Source: a bacterium (GTDB lineage Bacteria > CAIJMQ01 > JAADFP01). From it: 25,249 nucleotides of DNA. Both the position numbers and the translations under genes were made by a program. This document shows, piece after piece, positions 14,552 through 23,719 of this stretch. How positions within the stretch are numbered: the stretch's first letter is position 1; each line of letters starts with the position of its first letter. Below the pieces are notes generated by a model. It was not told the DNA's origin, ran no database searches, and worked only from the letters and a program-made list of their open reading frames with translations. Location of the stretch: the NCBI GenBank assembly GCA_027021085.1, contig JALUVB010000261.1, positions 1 through 25,249 on the forward strand, in the 5' to 3' direction.

Positions 14552-14758
14552 ATGAAAGGATTCAGGTTTGGTTTGTGGGTATCTTTTTTGCTGGCCATTC
14601 TCAGTGTGCTGGTAGGGTTTATTCAGAAGCTTACCGGCATAGCAATTGGTGTGGCAGAGTTGCCTGCCTATCCTCTGAGTTTCCTGCGTTTTGCCATGTT
14701 CTGCCTGCTGTTTGCCATTGCACTTTCTCTGGCGGAGATAGCACTGAAGAAACAGTGA
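14552..14758 (+). CDS. Small two-helix membrane protein
   Basis: The 68-residue protein has two hydrophobic segments: about residues 8-26 (LWVSFLLAILSVLVGF) and 45-64 (LRFAMFCLLFAIALSLAEIAL). Between them lies a short loop, and a KKQ tail ends it. It starts on the base after the folD stop, with GGGGGGAA as ribosome site, so it is coupled to folD. I do not recognise a family. The last codon and stop (CAG TGA) fall inside the first unit of the heptamer repeat at 14753, so the repeat may have replaced the original 3' end. Confidence 0.65.
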   Translation: MKGFRFGLWVSFLLAILSVLVGFIQKLTGIAIGVAELPAYPLSFLRFAMFCLLFAIALSLAEIALKKQ

Positions 14759-14857
14759 GCAGTAAACAGTAGCGGGTAGTGAGGGGGATGCTCCCAACAT
14801 AAGTTGGGATAGACTTTAGACTGTAGACCTTAGACGGGGAAAGCAGTGAACAGTTAA
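14753..14857 (+). repeat. Heptamer repeat tract, both unit families
   Basis: CAGTGAG, CAGTAAA, a partial CAG, TAGCGGG and TAGTGAG run over 14753-14783. TAGACTT, TAGACTG, TAGACCT and TAGACGG follow with exact 7-base period at 14810-14837. CAGTGAA and CAGTTAA close the tract at 14844-14857. The order (TAGTRAG family, TAGACNN family, TAGTRAG family) is the same as in the tract at 1185-1299. A 7-bp hairpin at 14792-14809 sits between the first two parts. Confidence 0.8.
14792..14809. repeat. Short perfect hairpin within the repeat tract
   Basis: TCCCAAC and GTTGGGA form a perfect 7-bp stem around the loop ATAA. No T-run follows on either strand, so it does not look like a standard terminator. 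It sits between two heptamer blocks behind the folD operon. Confidence 0.5.
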
Positions 14858-14864
14858 TAGCTTG

Positions 14865-14889
14865 CCTGTTCCGGATTTACCGGGGCAGG
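14865..14889. repeat. Ten-base-pair hairpin before the pseudogene
   Basis: CCTGTTCCGG (14865-14874) pairs with CCGGGGCAGG (14880-14889) around the loop ATTTA, with eight Watson-Crick and two G-T pairs. There is no T-run after it. It lies between the heptamer tract and the URO-D remnant and could be a small palindromic repeat element. Confidence 0.45.
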
Positions 14890-14903
14890 GATGGGTGGGA
14901 AAG

Positions 14904-15088
14904 TTAATAAAGAAAATAATAGTTATGGATAACATAAAGATGCGAGAAATGGTAAGGGTGAATCTGGGGTTATTGAGGAAGAAATAATAGAGAAGATTAC
15001 CGTAGCTAAGAAAGAAGAAGGTTACATTTACCATTCTGACCATTCGCTGCCAAAGAATGTGAGTTTTGATCAGTATAAAAAAGGATAG
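14904..15088 (+). pseudogene. Decayed C-terminal remnant of a URO-D superfamily gene
   Basis: Two frames together restore a URO-D C-terminus. In one frame (14904 to about 14957) reads LIKKIIVMDNIKMREMVR. In the other, from about 14957 to the TAG at 15086-15088, reads GESGVIEEEIIEKITVAKKE, then EGYIYHSDHSLPKNVSFDQY. The complete protein at 69-1166 has GKEIRMIGGIDKRVLSKSKEE and GGYIPKIDHSVSADISWDNF in the same places. One frameshift near 14957 joins the halves, and about 80 percent of the gene is missing upstream. The residues immediately after FDQY end at a stop instead of continuing into the final helix. The remnant cannot encode a working enzyme. Confidence 0.75.
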
Positions 15089-15131
15089 GGGACTTGTGTT
15101 AAAATATGGAAAGTATTAAAAAGGAGAAAGT

Positions 15132-16121
15132 ATGGGTTTTGTGTCTACTACTTACCAGATTGTTAAAAAACTGGGAAATAACGAAAGAACGAAAATTATC
15201 AATGTAATCGTCAAGTTGAGGAAGAACGTGCTTACCGCCTATATATTTCCGCGCTGGCGGAGACTCCCCGATAATTATGTGAAACACTTTGGTGACCCGG
15301 ATAAGACCATAAAACCAGGCTCTTCGGAGATGGCCGGTTTTGTTGTGGCCGTGGATAGGGATATATACGATTTTTCCGGCCTGGAGGCAGTGTGGGAGGC
15401 ACTGGATTCTATCAGTTCTACTCATGAAGATTTACAATTCCTTTACCAGGAATTAACAGAAGAAATAGATGCGACTCCGGAAAGATTGGGTGTTTCTTGT
15501 GAGAATATAGAGGCAAGAATTGATAAGCTCTGGGATAAGGGTATTGAGAATGAGTTTATCAAAGAGAAATGTCTGAGAGATATAGAAAGTAAAGTATTTA
15601 AGGATGGGCTAATTGAAGTGCAGTTTAACCCGCATAGAAAGTCAATCGTAAGTAAAGCCCGGGTGGAAAAAAGAAGCAAGGGGAAGGAGCTCTGTCCTTA
15701 CTGTATACAGGAGCCGGGTAGAGAAGATTATTTCTGGAACAATTACGTAATTTCTGCCAACCCCTATCCTTACTACGACCACCATATTGTTATTGTTAAT
15801 TCCAGGCATGTTTCCCAGTATATAGATGCAGAGGCTTTAAAAGTAATGGCGGAATTTGTTTTGAGCTCTCCCCATTATTTCTCCGTGTACAATGGGCCAC
15901 CGGGCACCTCGATTCTTTCCCACATGCATTTCCAGGCAGGAATATATACTTTCCCCGTGGAAAAGGCAAAAAAGGAACTCCTTAATAAAAAAGATAATCT
16001 CAGGGTGAGCCGGCTGCTTGATTTTCCCACCCGGGGTATAGTGGTGGAAAAAGAGATTGATAAAACGGGGGAAGGACTGCCTGATTCCTCTCCTGGTTAT
16101 ATATCGGGGAGGAGCAGGTAA
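15132..16121 (+). CDS. DUF4922/HIT-like nucleotidyltransferase or phosphorylase with reversed domain order
   Basis: The 329-residue protein has a HIT-like active-site motif HMHFQ (H264, H266, Q268). Before it come DGLIEVQFNPHRKSIVSKARV (159-177), CPYC (188-191) and NPYPYYDHHIVIVNSRHVSQ (210-229). This is the N-terminal half of DUF4922 proteins, related to GDP-sugar phosphorylases and galactose-1-phosphate uridylyltransferases. Residues 23-95 (INVIVKLRKN, YIFPRWRRLP, IKPGSSEMAGFVV) resemble the part that in the Bacteroidetes proteins I recall follows the HIT half. The order here thus seems swapped. The start is fixed by AAGGAG at 15121-15126 and an upstream in-frame stop at 15117-15119. A sugar-nucleotide reaction is likely; the substrate is unknown. 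Confidence 0.75.
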   Translation: MGFVSTTYQIVKKLGNNERTKIINVIVKLRKNVLTAYIFPRWRRLPDNYVKHFGDPDKTIKPGSSEMAGFVVAVDRDIYDFSGLEAVWEALDSISSTHEDLQFLYQELTEEIDATPERLGVSCENIEARIDKLWDKGIENEFIKEKCLRDIESKVFKDGLIEVQFNPHRKSIVSKARVEKRSKGKELCPYCIQEPGREDYFWNNYVISANPYPYYDHHIVIVNSRHVSQYIDAEALKVMAEFVLSSPHYFSVYNGPPGTSILSHMHFQAGIYTFPVEKAKKELLNKKDNLRVSRLLDFPTRGIVVEKEIDKTGEGLPDSSPGYISGRSR

Positions 16122-16144: not shown

Positions 16145-18172
16145 GTGTTTATAACTGTGAGTGATGGAGTAAAGCAGAATGGCTCACTGGAAAACTGGAT
16201 AAAAGGGTTTATTCTCTTTTCTCTTTTCCTGGTTCCTCTTGTCCAGCTTCCCCAGGCTTATAATTACGTTTTAGTTAAGCTGTCCCAGCTCCAGTTTTTC
16301 TTGCTTCTTTCTCTCCTGTTCTTCTTCATAGGGCTAACTCAGAAAGGGAAAGTTAGGCTGTTCTATCATCCTGCCTACCCTGTCTTAATTTCTCTTTTCC
16401 TCTGGTACCTCCTTTCCACCCTTTTCTCCCCCTATCCCTATGCAAGCCGTCCTTATTTTTACACCCAGATTTCTTACTTTTTGCTTTTCTATATTATCTC
16501 CATAATGGACTGGAGCAAGAAAGAAGAAAGAATTATCATAGGAATTCTGTTAATACCTTTTGCTTCCCTGGTTATAAAAGAAAGCATCTCCTACCTGCAG
16601 GGTTTTATGCACGATATAAGACTTGCCTATACCAGGGTCGGAATAAAAGAAATCATTACCTATTCCCGCGCCTACGAAAAAGTTTTGCCTTCTACTTTCG
16701 GAAACCCAAACTTCTTTTCTGCCTACCTGAATATACTTTTCCCTTTATCACTTCTTTTCTCTTTGCATAACCTGAAACAGAAAAGGGCTTTCATAGGAAT
16801 TCCCTCTCTTCTCATTTCTATTTTTTCTTTGTTGTTGATATACGGAGTAAGAGGACGAGCAGCTGGCATAGGAACAATTGCTGGATTGATTACACTAATA
16901 GTTATTTACCGGAACAAGTTATTTAGGAACAGGGGGAAAATTATTTTTGCTCTCTTACTGGTTTTTCTGCTTATAGTCAGCGCTCTATCTATCGTTCCCA
17001 GGATACCCGAGGTTAAAAAACAGATAAAGATTGACTTAAGAGAGGGGACGATTGGCATAAGGGTAAGAATATGGCAGGGAACCTGGAGAATGATAGTGGC
17101 ACGTCCTTTGGTGGGGTGGGGACTGGGGACCTTTTTAGTGGTTTATCCGGAGTACAGGGTCCCAGAATATTTTCGTAATCCTCATGCTGTAAATGCTACC
17201 GACCATGCCCATAATGAGTTTCTGGAACAATGGAGTGAGACGGGAATAGTCGGCTTGCTGATTTTCTTAATGCTTGTTTTTATCTCCATGAGAGAAGGAG
17301 CAAGGAAGTTTAATAAAAGCGGCAATTTTATCTTTCCTGCGCTTATGGCAGGAATCGTGGGAATACTGGTAAATAATCTGTTCGGGGTTAATTTGCGCTA
17401 TCCCTCTTCTTCTATCTTTTTCTTTACTTTCATGGGATTGTTATTTGCCCTGCCCCCCCAGGGCAAGAAGAAATTTTATCACATCAAGTTATCTTTCTCG
17501 GCTATGCAGAGAAACCTCTTAATAGTTTTTCTTTCTCTGGCAGGCGGGTGGATTTTCTTTAATGTGGGAGTAAAAGAAAACTTATCCCAGATACACCTCA
17601 GAAAGGGAATTATTTTCAGGAAGCAGCTTATCTGGAATGAGGCAATACCCGAATACCTTAAGTCTTTAGCCTGGAATCCTTACAATTTGAGAACTCGTTA
17701 TCGGCTTGCCTTTGCCTATGCTTCCACCAACAACCTGGACAAAGCACTAAAAGAGTATTTGAGAATCAAGGAACTGGCTCCGCATTATGCTGAGACGGAC
17801 TTCAATTTAGGGGCTCTTTATCTCAGGAAAGGGGAAATAATAAAGGCGGGGTTTTACCTGGAAGAAATGCTTAAACTTAATCCGTATCATCCTACTGCAC
17901 ATGCCAACCTGGCACTGATATATAAAAAAATAGGAAAAAGAGGAAAAGCCATCGAAGAATTTAAAAAGGTTATTGCATTGAATCCCTCTATTCTGCCCGC
18001 TTACTGGGACCTGGCAGCTCTTTTGCGGGAAGAAGGGCGCTACGAGGAAGCATTGAGTGTGCTGGAGGAACTTGCTAAAAAAGATAGCGAAAATGTTAAA
18101 ATTAGAGAAGCTATCGGGGCACTGCAGAGGCGAATCAGGAGAAGAGATGGAAGAAGATATAAATCTGAGTAA
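16145..18172 (+). CDS. O-antigen ligase/polymerase-like membrane protein with C-terminal TPR repeats
   Basis: The 675-residue protein has about eleven to twelve membrane segments up to residue about 480. It carries the Wzy_C/O-antigen ligase signature: RIWQGTWRMIVARPLVGWGLGTF near residue 302, then a periplasmic loop with DHAHNEFLEQWSETG near 353. Residues 490-665 form about five tetratricopeptide repeats (NEAIPEYLKSLAWNPYN, DKALKEYLRIKELAPHY, IKAGFYLEEMLKLNPYH, GKAIEEFKKVIALNPS, EEALSVLEELAKK). Such proteins join or polymerise lipid-linked glycans at the outer face of the inner membrane. The start is GTG 16145 or GTG 16157, both with poor ribosome sites. The end overlaps mlaE by 26 bases, so the genes are probably co-transcribed. 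Confidence 0.88.
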   Translation: MFITVSDGVKQNGSLENWIKGFILFSLFLVPLVQLPQAYNYVLVKLSQLQFFLLLSLLFFFIGLTQKGKVRLFYHPAYPVLISLFLWYLLSTLFSPYPYASRPYFYTQISYFLLFYIISIMDWSKKEERIIIGILLIPFASLVIKESISYLQGFMHDIRLAYTRVGIKEIITYSRAYEKVLPSTFGNPNFFSAYLNILFPLSLLFSLHNLKQKRAFIGIPSLLISIFSLLLIYGVRGRAAGIGTIAGLITLIVIYRNKLFRNRGKIIFALLLVFLLIVSALSIVPRIPEVKKQIKIDLREGTIGIRVRIWQGTWRMIVARPLVGWGLGTFLVVYPEYRVPEYFRNPHAVNATDHAHNEFLEQWSETGIVGLLIFLMLVFISMREGARKFNKSGNFIFPALMAGIVGILVNNLFGVNLRYPSSSIFFFTFMGLLFALPPQGKKKFYHIKLSFSAMQRNLLIVFLSLAGGWIFFNVGVKENLSQIHLRKGIIFRKQLIWNEAIPEYLKSLAWNPYNLRTRYRLAFAYASTNNLDKALKEYLRIKELAPHYAETDFNLGALYLRKGEIIKAGFYLEEMLKLNPYHPTAHANLALIYKKIGKRGKAIEEFKKVIALNPSILPAYWDLAALLREEGRYEEALSVLEELAKKDSENVKIREAIGALQRRIRRRDGRRYKSE

Positions 18173-21091: not shown

Positions 21092-21122
21092 GAGACACAT
21101 TTCATAAAAAATTTGGTAAAAT
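21092..21122 (+). promoter_or_regulatory. Candidate promoter of the polyamine operon
   Basis: GAGACA (21092-21097, four of six matches to TTGACA) and TAAAAT (21117-21122, five of six to TATAAT) are spaced 19 bases apart. They lie in the 112-base AT-rich gap between mlaD and the TTG start of the S-adenosylmethionine decarboxylase. The leader would be about 50 bases. The long spacer weakens the call. Confidence 0.35.
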
Positions 21123-21178
21123 TATGCACCTCGGTGATTGGTTTTTTTATAAACGTCTTGGAGAAAGGAGGGGATAAG

Positions 21179-21592
21179 TTGAAAGCACTGGGAAGACATG
21201 TTCTGGGGGAATTCTACCATTGTAACCCCGAAGTGCTCAACGACCTTGCCAAGATTGAAAATATCATGAAAGACGCTGCCCTGGAAAGTGGTGCCACTAT
21301 CCTGGGCAGTTTTTTTCATCCCTTCCAGCCTCATGGAGTAAGCGGTGTGATAGTGATTGCAGAATCGCATCTTTCTATTCACACCTGGCCTGAGTATGGA
21401 TATGCAGCAGTGGATGTTTTCACTTGTGGCAAGGTGGTTGACCCCTGGAGAGCTCTCCGATACCTTAAAGATTCCCTTCAGGCAGAGAATTTTTCTGCCA
21501 TGGAGGTAAGAAGGGGAAACCTGGAAGAAGTGGCGACGGTATCGGAAGGTGGGACCTTGTCCCAGGCTGATAAAGCTTGTTATGGTTTTTGA
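21179..21592 (+). CDS. speH: S-adenosylmethionine decarboxylase proenzyme (pyruvoyl type)
   Basis: Starting at TTG 21179, just behind AAAGGAGGGG, the protein has 137 residues and opens [15 protein letters not shown], as the family does; the upstream in-frame start at 21113 has no family residues. The processing site is E62-S63 in [12 protein letters not shown], with H68 and C83 at the positions known from the Thermotoga maritima enzyme. Self-cleavage makes the pyruvoyl group. The enzyme forms decarboxylated S-adenosylmethionine, the aminopropyl donor for SpeE. The gene overlaps pdaD by 11 bases. Confidence 0.95.
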
Positions 21593-22049
21593 AACCCCCG
21601 TAAAGTTTTTCTTGGTGAGAGGGAAGGGGGAGGCATCTTTTCCCCTAACGGCTTTTGACGCGGCATTGCTGGATTCCGGGGTTGGTAACACCAACCTGCT
21701 GAAAGTTTCCAGTATATTGCCGCCTGCCTGTAGTGAAACAGAACCGTTTACTCTCCCCTTTGGCGTATTGGTGCCCGTGGCTTATGCGGCACTTACCTCT
21801 GAGAAAGCGGGAGAGGTAATTGCTGCATCAGTAGCCGTAGCGGTGCCCCAGGATAACAGCAAGCCGGGTTTAATTATGGAAGTTTCGGGGAAGGGAACCT
21901 CATCAGAAATAGAGAAAAAAGCACGCGAGATGGTTAAGGAAGGAATGTCTATAAGAAAGGAGCCTATTTCTCGTATCCTGTCCATTTCCGTTGAACATAG
22001 AGTTATCAAAGTGGGAGCTGTATTTGCCGGTGTAGTACTCTGGAAATAA
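21582..22049 (+). CDS. pdaD: Pyruvoyl-dependent arginine decarboxylase
   Basis: From ATG 21582 the protein has 155 residues: [17 protein letters not shown], then [24 protein letters not shown], which holds the self-cleaving serine pair S43-S44 of the PvlArgDC family. [20 protein letters not shown] and [22 protein letters not shown] complete the pattern. It converts arginine to agmatine. It overlaps speH, has little ribosome site of its own and is probably coupled; a GTG at 21549 in the same frame is a less likely start. The family is best known from archaea and Chlamydia, with scattered other bacteria. Confidence 0.92.
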
Positions 22050-22053
22050 CATC

Positions 22054-22911
22054 ATGGAACTCTGGTTCAGCGAAGAACATACTGACCATACCCGCTTATC
22101 TTTCCGGGTGGAGAAAGTTTTGGCATCTGTTTACAGCAAGTACCAGAGAATAGATGTCCTGGAAACACCTGATTGGGGTAAGGTGTTACTTCTCGACGGC
22201 AAGGTCATGCTTACTGAAAAAGACGAATTCATCTATCATGAAATGATAACTCATCCCTCTCTTTTTATACATCCCGCACCGCAGAGAATTCTGATAATAG
22301 GCGGGGGAGACGGGGGGACAGTAAGAGAGATAACACGTCATAAAAAGGTGAAAGAAATAGACCTGTGCGAGATAGATGAAGCTGTTATAGAAGTCTCTCG
22401 CCGGTTCCTGCCTCACCTGAGCGAGAAATTATCTGAGCGTAGAGTCAAAATTTACCTGGAAGATGGCGAGAAATTTATAAATGAGAAAAAGAATCACTAC
22501 GATATTATAATAATAGATTCCACAGACCCTTCTGAAGTTAGCCAGGGGTTGTTCACCGCGGAGTTTTACGAAGTAGTGAGCAATTCTTTGCATGAAGAGG
22601 GCATTCTCATAGTGCAGAGCGAATCTGTTATAAATAACCCTCAACTGGTAAAAGATATATACTGGAACATAGAGAAATCTTTCCCTCATACCTACCTCTA
22701 TTGGGCTCCTATACCAACTTACCCGGGAGGGATATGGACTTTTACCATGGGAAGCAAGAAGTATTCTCCTGTAAAAGACTTACTGCTGGACTACTGGGAA
22801 AGCTTCAAGCCAGAATTGAGATACTATAATCCATCTGTTCATCGTGCTGCGTTTGCTCTGCCCAATTTTGTGGAACAAGAGTTATCCCTGAAAAATGAAA
22901 CCTTACTCTAA
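22054..22911 (+). CDS. speE: Spermidine synthase-type aminopropyltransferase
   Basis: The 285-residue protein opens MELWFSEEHTDHTRLSFRVE and has DWGKVLLLDGKVMLTEKDEFIYHEMITH near residue 40, the SAM-like cofactor loop IIGGGDGGTVREI near 86, EIDEAVIEVSRRFLP near 108, and the catalytic IIDSTDPSE near 153. It adds an aminopropyl group from decarboxylated SAM to putrescine or agmatine. It starts 4 bases after pdaD and overlaps the agmatinase gene by 17 bases. Preferred acceptor cannot be told by eye. Confidence 0.95.
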   Translation: MELWFSEEHTDHTRLSFRVEKVLASVYSKYQRIDVLETPDWGKVLLLDGKVMLTEKDEFIYHEMITHPSLFIHPAPQRILIIGGGDGGTVREITRHKKVKEIDLCEIDEAVIEVSRRFLPHLSEKLSERRVKIYLEDGEKFINEKKNHYDIIIIDSTDPSEVSQGLFTAEFYEVVSNSLHEEGILIVQSESVINNPQLVKDIYWNIEKSFPHTYLYWAPIPTYPGGIWTFTMGSKKYSPVKDLLLDYWESFKPELRYYNPSVHRAAFALPNFVEQELSLKNETLL

Positions 22912-23719
22912 GTTTACTTTTCTTTCTGCCACCTCTCCGGCAGAAGAAGCCAGCGTAGTAATTGCAGGTTTCCCTTACGAATTAACCACTTCTATTCCGG
23001 GTACCATCCTGGCGCCCAACAAGATAAGGGAAGCTTCCTGGTTAATAGAAGCTTATTCTCCCTACCAGGGAGGGGACCTTGCCAGCATTCCCATTTCTGA
23101 TGTGGCAAACCTTACCCTCTCTTCCCTGGAAAGAAAAGAAGACATACTTTCCCGCGCAGAAAAACACATACTTCCCCTGCTAAACCAGGGAAAGAAGATT
23201 GCTACCATGGGGGGAGACCATTCCATCACCTATTTTATAGTAAGCCAATTACCTGCAGGAGTAAAAATCCTCCACCTGGATGCGCACCTTGATTTTCGCA
23301 ATTCCTGGAGAGGTTCTTCTCTTAATCATGCCACTGTGATGAAGAGACTGAAGGAGAGCGGAAGAGAAATTATCCCGGTGGGTATCAGGTCTGTGGCAGC
23401 AGAGGAAAAAACAGTCGCTTTCTTTCCCGTAGGAAAGCCCCCTCCCTTAAAAAAAGGAGATAAAGTATACCTGAGTATAGACATGGATGTATTCGACCCC
23501 TCAATTGCTCCGGCAGTAAGCAACCCTGAGCCAGGCGGAATCTCCTTTCCGGAATTCTTAAAATGGCTTCTCCACCTTCCCCCTTTTGAGCTTATAGGCT
23601 TTGATATAGTGGAATTCAACCCTCTCCTGGAAGGGGCTCATATTACCTCGGTTCTGGGAGCAACAGTAATCAGGGAGGTAATCTTGAAATTCTGGAGCGA
23701 AAAGGAGGTATTAGCATGA
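22895..23719 (+). CDS. speB: Agmatinase-family ureohydrolase
   Basis: The 274-residue protein has the two-manganese motifs of the arginase/agmatinase family: GGDHS near residue 108, DAHLDFR near 129, NHATVMKR near 148 and SIDMDVFDPS near 194. It would release urea from agmatine to give putrescine, or from aminopropylagmatine to give spermidine. It lies behind speE with a 17-base overlap and ahead of the phosphoesterase with ATGA. Together with speH, pdaD and speE it completes the route from arginine to spermidine. Confidence 0.93.
   Translation: MKPYSKFTFLSATSPAEEASVVIAGFPYELTTSIPGTILAPNKIREASWLIEAYSPYQGGDLASIPISDVANLTLSSLERKEDILSRAEKHILPLLNQGKKIATMGGDHSITYFIVSQLPAGVKILHLDAHLDFRNSWRGSSLNHATVMKRLKESGREIIPVGIRSVAAEEKTVAFFPVGKPPPLKKGDKVYLSIDMDVFDPSIAPAVSNPEPGGISFPEFLKWLLHLPPFELIGFDIVEFNPLLEGAHITSVLGATVIREVILKFWSEKEVLA

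Follow-up and report, generated by a model that had tools for sequence, protein, structure and literature searches.

The window examined here is a stretch of 25,249 nucleotides, and at positions 15132-16121 of its forward strand it contains an open reading frame whose 329-residue product matches PF16269 (DUF4922) with 63.9 bits against a gathering cut-off of 23.6. This match covers residues 148-270 of the protein and positions 19-145 of the 146 in the model; residues 1-153 matched no family in our Pfam scan, and the window genome has no second DUF4922 protein above the cut-off. The features that we assign to this gene, and to the region immediately upstream of it, are as follows.

14972-15088, + strand: remnant (C-terminal piece) of a UroD-like gene, outside the permuted gene and after folD, assigned by similarity to the open reading frame at 69-1166
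15121-15126, + strand: AAGGAG, likely ribosome-binding site judged by sequence, 5 nt 5' of the ATG
15132-16121, + strand: permuted DUF4922/GalT-like gene, open reading frame of 329 amino acids with an ATG start
15132-15467, + strand: residues 1-112, N-terminal here and homologous to the C-terminal half of canonical proteins (reciprocal HMMs, alignment, N-half model on Apa2 221-319)
15246-15269, + strand: FPRWRRLP, residues 39-46, counterpart of the canonical FPRxKHRP (alignments)
15312-15338, + strand: KPGSSEMAG, residues 61-69, counterpart of the canonical SPASVDxGG (alignment; invariant in 7 orthologues)
15468-15503, + strand: junction of about 12 residues from the old C-terminus to the old N-terminus, between the two canonical terminal helices
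15504-15572, + strand: residues 125-147, matching the N-terminal helix of canonical proteins (alignment, IDKLWDKGIEN.. against IDRLFARQLRD..)
15573-16067, + strand: residues 148-312, HIT (catalytic) half, canonically N-terminal and now C-terminal (PF16269, hhalign, model)
15693-15704, + strand: CPYC, residues 188-191, likely structural zinc ligands (invariant; analogy with Cys52/Cys55 of E. coli GalT, PMC5081055)
15921-15941, + strand: HMHFQAG, HxHxQ-phi-phi nucleotidyl-histidine motif (HMHFQ at residues 264-268; invariant in 7 orthologues)

The motifs named in a preliminary description of this DNA were all found in the 329-residue open reading frame where that description had placed them, with FNPHR at residues 165-169 and NPYPYY at residues 210-215. 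Across the seven permuted proteins, C188, C191, H217, H218, H264 and H266 are invariant, as are K61 and E66 of KPGSSEMAG, and the junction varies in length among the orthologues.

The gene directly downstream (16145-18172) encodes a fusion of an O-antigen ligase (Wzy_C) domain with a C-terminal TPR array, and precedes an MlaE/F/D-like set. Further along, the region at 21113-23719 appears by eye to be a polyamine cluster, with SpeD-like, pyruvoyl arginine-decarboxylase-like, spermidine synthase-like and agmatinase-like open reading frames. After folD, a small membrane open reading frame at 14552-14758 weakly resembles, below the cut-off, the end of DUF2721. The degraded sequence between this point and the permuted gene ends in the remnant of a uroporphyrinogen-decarboxylase (UroD)-like gene: 14972-15088 encodes IEEEIIEKITVAKKEEGYIYHSDHSLPKNVSFDQY, which is 46% identical over 35 amino acids to the C-terminal part of the UroD-like open reading frame at 69-1166. 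In a sister genome (L010), the same place holds the N-terminal part of a UroD-like gene (L010 7354-7905), and in L011, where the permuted gene is intact, little sequence separates it from folD. The preliminary description had offered, as one alternative, that the permuted gene is a chimaera formed beside the scar at 14753-15088; this idea falls, since the scar is a UroD-like remnant, in agreement with L010 and L011, and it has no part in the permutation.

Order of the halves and homology of the N-terminal half

Our scan of 84,980 species genomes identified 80 loci, six of them encoding full-length permuted proteins and the rest canonical, and a set of 72 DUF4922 proteins served as the canonical comparison. 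In every one of these 72 proteins, the HIT half (approximately residues 54-181) lies ahead of the C-terminal part (approximately residues 234-317), i.e., the part carrying FPRxKHRP and SPASVDxGG follows the HIT half, and this order is reversed in the permuted protein. By eye, the HIT half is also first in class II GalT and in the more distant relatives L006, L093, L096 and L097. The family order given in the preliminary description, with the HIT half leading, is thus correct, and in none of the 72 canonical proteins is the order already the one seen here. GGP proteins have the canonical order of halves as well.

A Pfam search of each half, as had been proposed, gave a divided result, with the HIT half matching PF16269 and residues 1-153 matching nothing; because PF16269 (146 positions) spans only the HIT half, this test was not decisive by itself and a custom profile was needed. 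An HMM built from residues 1-122 of the seven permuted proteins matched 72 of 72 canonical proteins, with its best match in the C-terminal third (best E-value 2e-11), and the reciprocal HMM of the canonical C-half matched residues 8-110 of all seven permuted proteins with E-values of 1e-10 to 1e-6, both searches being against small target sets, where the controls weigh more than the E-values. In these controls, the N-half HMM scored above 5 bits in 70 of the 72 canonical proteins and in none of the 72 reversed sequences, and each of 20 column-shuffled N-half HMMs exceeded 5 bits in at most one canonical protein of the 72. Comparison of profiles with hhalign placed the N-half on columns 309-413 of the 417 canonical columns (probability 96.5, E-value 8.5e-10) and the HIT half on columns 135-296 (probability 99.7). 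Our alignment A4 gives a near gap-free match over about 110 residues, from the helix before the C-half through to the natural canonical C-terminus, in which N24, R41, P46, P62 and G69 are invariant and pairwise identity between the permuted N-half and the canonical C-halves is only about 14-23%. Residues 23-95, on which the preliminary description had let the question turn, do align with the canonical C-terminal part, both by profile and in A4.

No part of the canonical chain is missing, since the N-half corresponds to the C-half, residues 125-147 to the N-terminal helix, and the HIT half is present. The old C-terminal helix ends at approximately residue 112 and the old N-terminal helix begins at approximately residue 125, with the new termini located in the inter-half linker (the break being at Apa2 214-221). 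Canonical DUF4922 proteins, which occur in Bacteroidota and Ignavibacteria, and the permuted protein have elements in common along approximately 300 residues, i.e., a HIT half with Q[FY]N, CxxC, NPxPxx and HMHFQAG, and a C-half with FPR..P and [KS]Px[SA]x[ED]xxG. They differ in that the permuted protein has its halves reversed, has E for the D of SPASVD, sits on a very long stem branch, and has RL for the HR pair of FPRxKHRP, with H219 and R220, invariant in 25 canonical proteins, replaced by R44 and L45.

Orthologues, predicted structure and origin of the permutation

Full-length orthologues with the same reversed order were found in six other genomes, at 57-88% identity to the window protein, which answers the question, raised in the preliminary description, of whether such orthologues exist. 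These belong to the family of the window genome and to Candidatus Ratteibacteria, where 4 of 35 genomes of the phylum contain the permuted gene; a search of these 35 genomes and of 386 relatives of genome G292 for further permuted members returned only the same four. A separate observation in G292 is an isolated 31-codon tail of the permuted gene (L104, G292:C64:235-327), which is either a relic or a stray contig and which appears by eye to be nearer to L013 than to the copy G292 itself carries. In a tree built on rows rotated to a common order, the seven permuted proteins form one clade (SH-aLRT 100) with a very long stem, with canonical DUF4922 proteins in another, and within the permuted clade the family of the window genome splits from Ratteibacteria; the exact sister group is unsure because this quick tree has long branches. 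Values of dN/dS within the permuted clade are 0.08-0.11, and the protein is therefore under purifying selection.

There is no gene neighbourhood conserved across the seven-member clade. For example, in L012 the permuted gene is followed after 17 nt by the gene for a galactokinase-like GHMP kinase, which scores below the galactokinase cut-off, and is preceded by genes for a HAD hydrolase and a phosphofructokinase. In L013-L015, by eye, it has priA on one side and an unrelated 7-deazaguanine/queuosine-type cluster on the other. In G293 the HAD gene adjoins the kinase gene with no permuted gene between them, and in G294 a different gene stands between the two. With regard to this kinase, we observe that a long (approximately 500 amino acids) galactokinase-like GHMP kinase is linked to a HAD hydrolase in the Ratteibacteria loci L132, L134 and L012, with a phosphofructokinase also linked in L012 (and, by eye, in L134), and that the permuted gene stands between HAD and kinase genes in L012 only, not in L132 or L134.

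The AlphaFold2 model of the full-length protein, predicted from alignment A4, which included canonical C-half fragments, has a pLDDT of 80 and a pTM of 0.84. With VIA-align, residues 121-313 of this model align with residues 1-214 of the yeast Ap4A phosphorylase Apa2 (PDB 4i5t, 4i5w, 4i5v) with a Z of 9.9 over 171 residues at 3.4 A. The N-half was also predicted alone (pLDDT 78, pTM 0.63), and residues 1-106 of that model align with Apa2 221-319 over 90 residues at 3.5 A, with a Z of 4.6, a modest value that unrelated folds reach and that would not stand alone. All three Apa2 entries were listed among the N-half alignments, with the longest aligned lengths, and the part of Apa2 matched by the N-half is exactly the part left free by the full model. 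Foldseek ranked Apa2 second for the full model (E-value 0.16) and returned no significant match for the N-half model, and neither phmmer nor a profile search gave anything useful when the permuted sequence was run against the PDB; a canonical DUF4922 profile searched against the PDB found Apa2 with an E-value of 8e-5. Apa2 and the permuted protein have HxHxQ and, in the predicted models, the two-half fold in common, with the halves in opposite order and 13-14% identity. With its ends placed between the two halves, the permuted chain could still adopt the fold of the canonical parent, as the predicted structures support.

The true permutation that the preliminary description had considered is thus borne out by the reciprocal profiles, the near gap-free alignment, the complementary alignment to Apa2 and the six other orthologues, and the 329-residue protein is almost certainly a natural circular permutation of a DUF4922 protein. 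Sequence gives good support, and predicted structure moderate support, for the changed order of halves, and it is highly likely that the permutation and the membership of the DUF4922/GalT/Ap4A-phosphorylase branch of the HIT superfamily hold together. A HIT half fused to an unrelated N-terminal domain, whose FPR..P and EMAG resemble the canonical motifs by chance, would fit the absence of a Pfam match in residues 1-153 and the low identity of the N-half to the canonical C-halves, but we consider it very improbable, given that the N-half profile finds the same part of all 72 canonical proteins with negative reversed and shuffled controls, that the matches are reciprocal and near gap-free over 110 residues, and that the N-half aligns to the complementary part of Apa2. 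Even less credible, to the point of being negligible, is a chimaera of recent date, or an error of assembly, next to the scar (14753-15088). Degraded sequence does border the permuted gene on its upstream side, but six other genomes have the same order at 57-88% identity in different neighbourhoods, the scar is what remains of a UroD-like gene, and dN/dS values are close to 0.1.

The permutation is kept in evolution: two uncultured lineages, with at least seven genomes between them, carry it as one clade with a dN/dS of about 0.1, and a single origin in the ancestor of the seven-member clade is shown within the sample. In the permuted chain, the old C-terminal half comes first, a short new linker leads to the old N-terminus, and the end of the chain is at the old linker between the halves. 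The simplest route to such a gene would be a tandem duplication whose copies fused and then lost the outer head and the outer tail, and the idea of a tail of one copy joined to the head of another, put forward in the preliminary description, may hold as an ancient origin by tandem duplication and not as a local, recent event. Fission into separate half-genes followed by re-fusion in reverse order, as opposed to tandem duplication and trimming, is a possible though less probable route. The new termini do lie where the halves naturally meet, and the two halves of GalT are pseudo-symmetric HIT-type units, but no separate half-genes were found, nor were tandem full-length copies, and the routes of origin are not separated by these data.

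Predicted activity and significance

HxHxQ-phi-phi is the motif of GalT and of Ap4A phosphorylases (PMC7705103), and in GalT the second histidine of the motif becomes uridylylated (PMC5081055). The zinc ligands of E. coli GalT are Cys52, Cys55, His115 and His164 (PMC5081055). Since HMHFQ and CPYC are invariant in the clade, the permuted protein is probably a nucleotidyltransferase or phosphorylase of the GalT/Ap4A-phosphorylase type, and nucleotidyl-transfer chemistry is likely on the strength of these motifs. By analogy with this conserved motif, the second histidine of HMHFQ would attack the alpha-phosphate of a nucleoside-diphospho-sugar or a dinucleotide to give a nucleotidyl-histidine, and the nucleotidyl group would then pass to a sugar-1-phosphate or to phosphate in a ping-pong reaction. 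In human GALT, C-terminal residues 334-346, including Glu340, line the hexose-phosphate pocket, which also contains Gln188 and Asn173 of the other subunit (PMC5081055). KPGSSEMAG is, by position and by eye, the likely counterpart of this stretch, through which the moved half probably supplies part of a sugar-phosphate pocket. The HR pair of FPRxKHRP is lost, and the substrate may therefore differ from that of canonical DUF4922 proteins.

With class II GalT (NF003629, TIGR01239) the permuted protein shares HxHxQ and a similar HIT segment at residues 204-283 (best E-value 1.6e-16); class II GalT proteins are approximately 490-510 amino acids long and in canonical order, whereas the permuted protein has 329 amino acids and misses all the NCBIfam equivalog cut-offs. 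Our Pfam scan of the permuted protein found no match to GalT (PF01087) or to the Ap4A phosphorylase domains PF19327 and PF09830, canonical DUF4922 gives only a sub-threshold match to PF19327, and an hhalign comparison of the N-half with five bacterial Ap4A phosphorylases gave no match. Plant GGP proteins (GDP-L-galactose/GDP-D-glucose phosphorylases) belong to the same superfamily, cl14728 according to PMC9871823, and some carry a DUF4922 annotation (PMC9871823, PMC11047344).

Two narrower readings concern the substrate. An Ap4A or NDP-sugar phosphorylase, with phosphate as acceptor, is a tentative possibility, in that the closest solved fold is yeast Apa2 and some plant members of the GGP family bear the DUF4922 annotation, but the sequence profiles gave no significant match to bacterial Ap4A phosphorylases and the sugar-kinase neighbour in L012 better fits a sugar-1-phosphate as acceptor. 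It is unlikely that the protein stands in for the usual GalT as the galactose-1-phosphate uridylyltransferase in these organisms. The window genome and G001 do have a galactokinase and lack a PF01087 GalT, profiles of class II GalT recognise the HIT half, and one orthologue (L012) adjoins a galactokinase-like gene, but every GalT equivalog cut-off is far missed (60 bits against 628), and the L012 neighbour is itself under the galactokinase cut-off. Replacement of GalT is only one possibility, because genomes G294 and G295 each have a normal GalT together with the permuted gene.

We found no report of a circular permutation associated with GalT, HIT or the histidine triad in the open-access literature, and paywalled work may hold one. 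It would be a speculative claim, which we put forward with reserve, that no natural circular permutation had been described in the GalT/Ap4A-phosphorylase branch before this one, and that the enzyme has a substrate of its own and serves the sugar-1-phosphate metabolism of candidate phyla, some members of which lack a normal GalT. The protein is a conserved natural permutation of a known kind of enzyme, whose biochemical role we infer. A domain library that models DUF4922 by its HIT half alone, as Pfam does, will annotate a protein of this kind and miss the relocated remainder, and this serves as a warning. In human GALT the hexose-phosphate pocket is built by both subunits, including the C-terminal stretch 334-346 (PMC5081055), and naturally swapped halves test directly how far the fold, the dimer and the active site depend on chain order.
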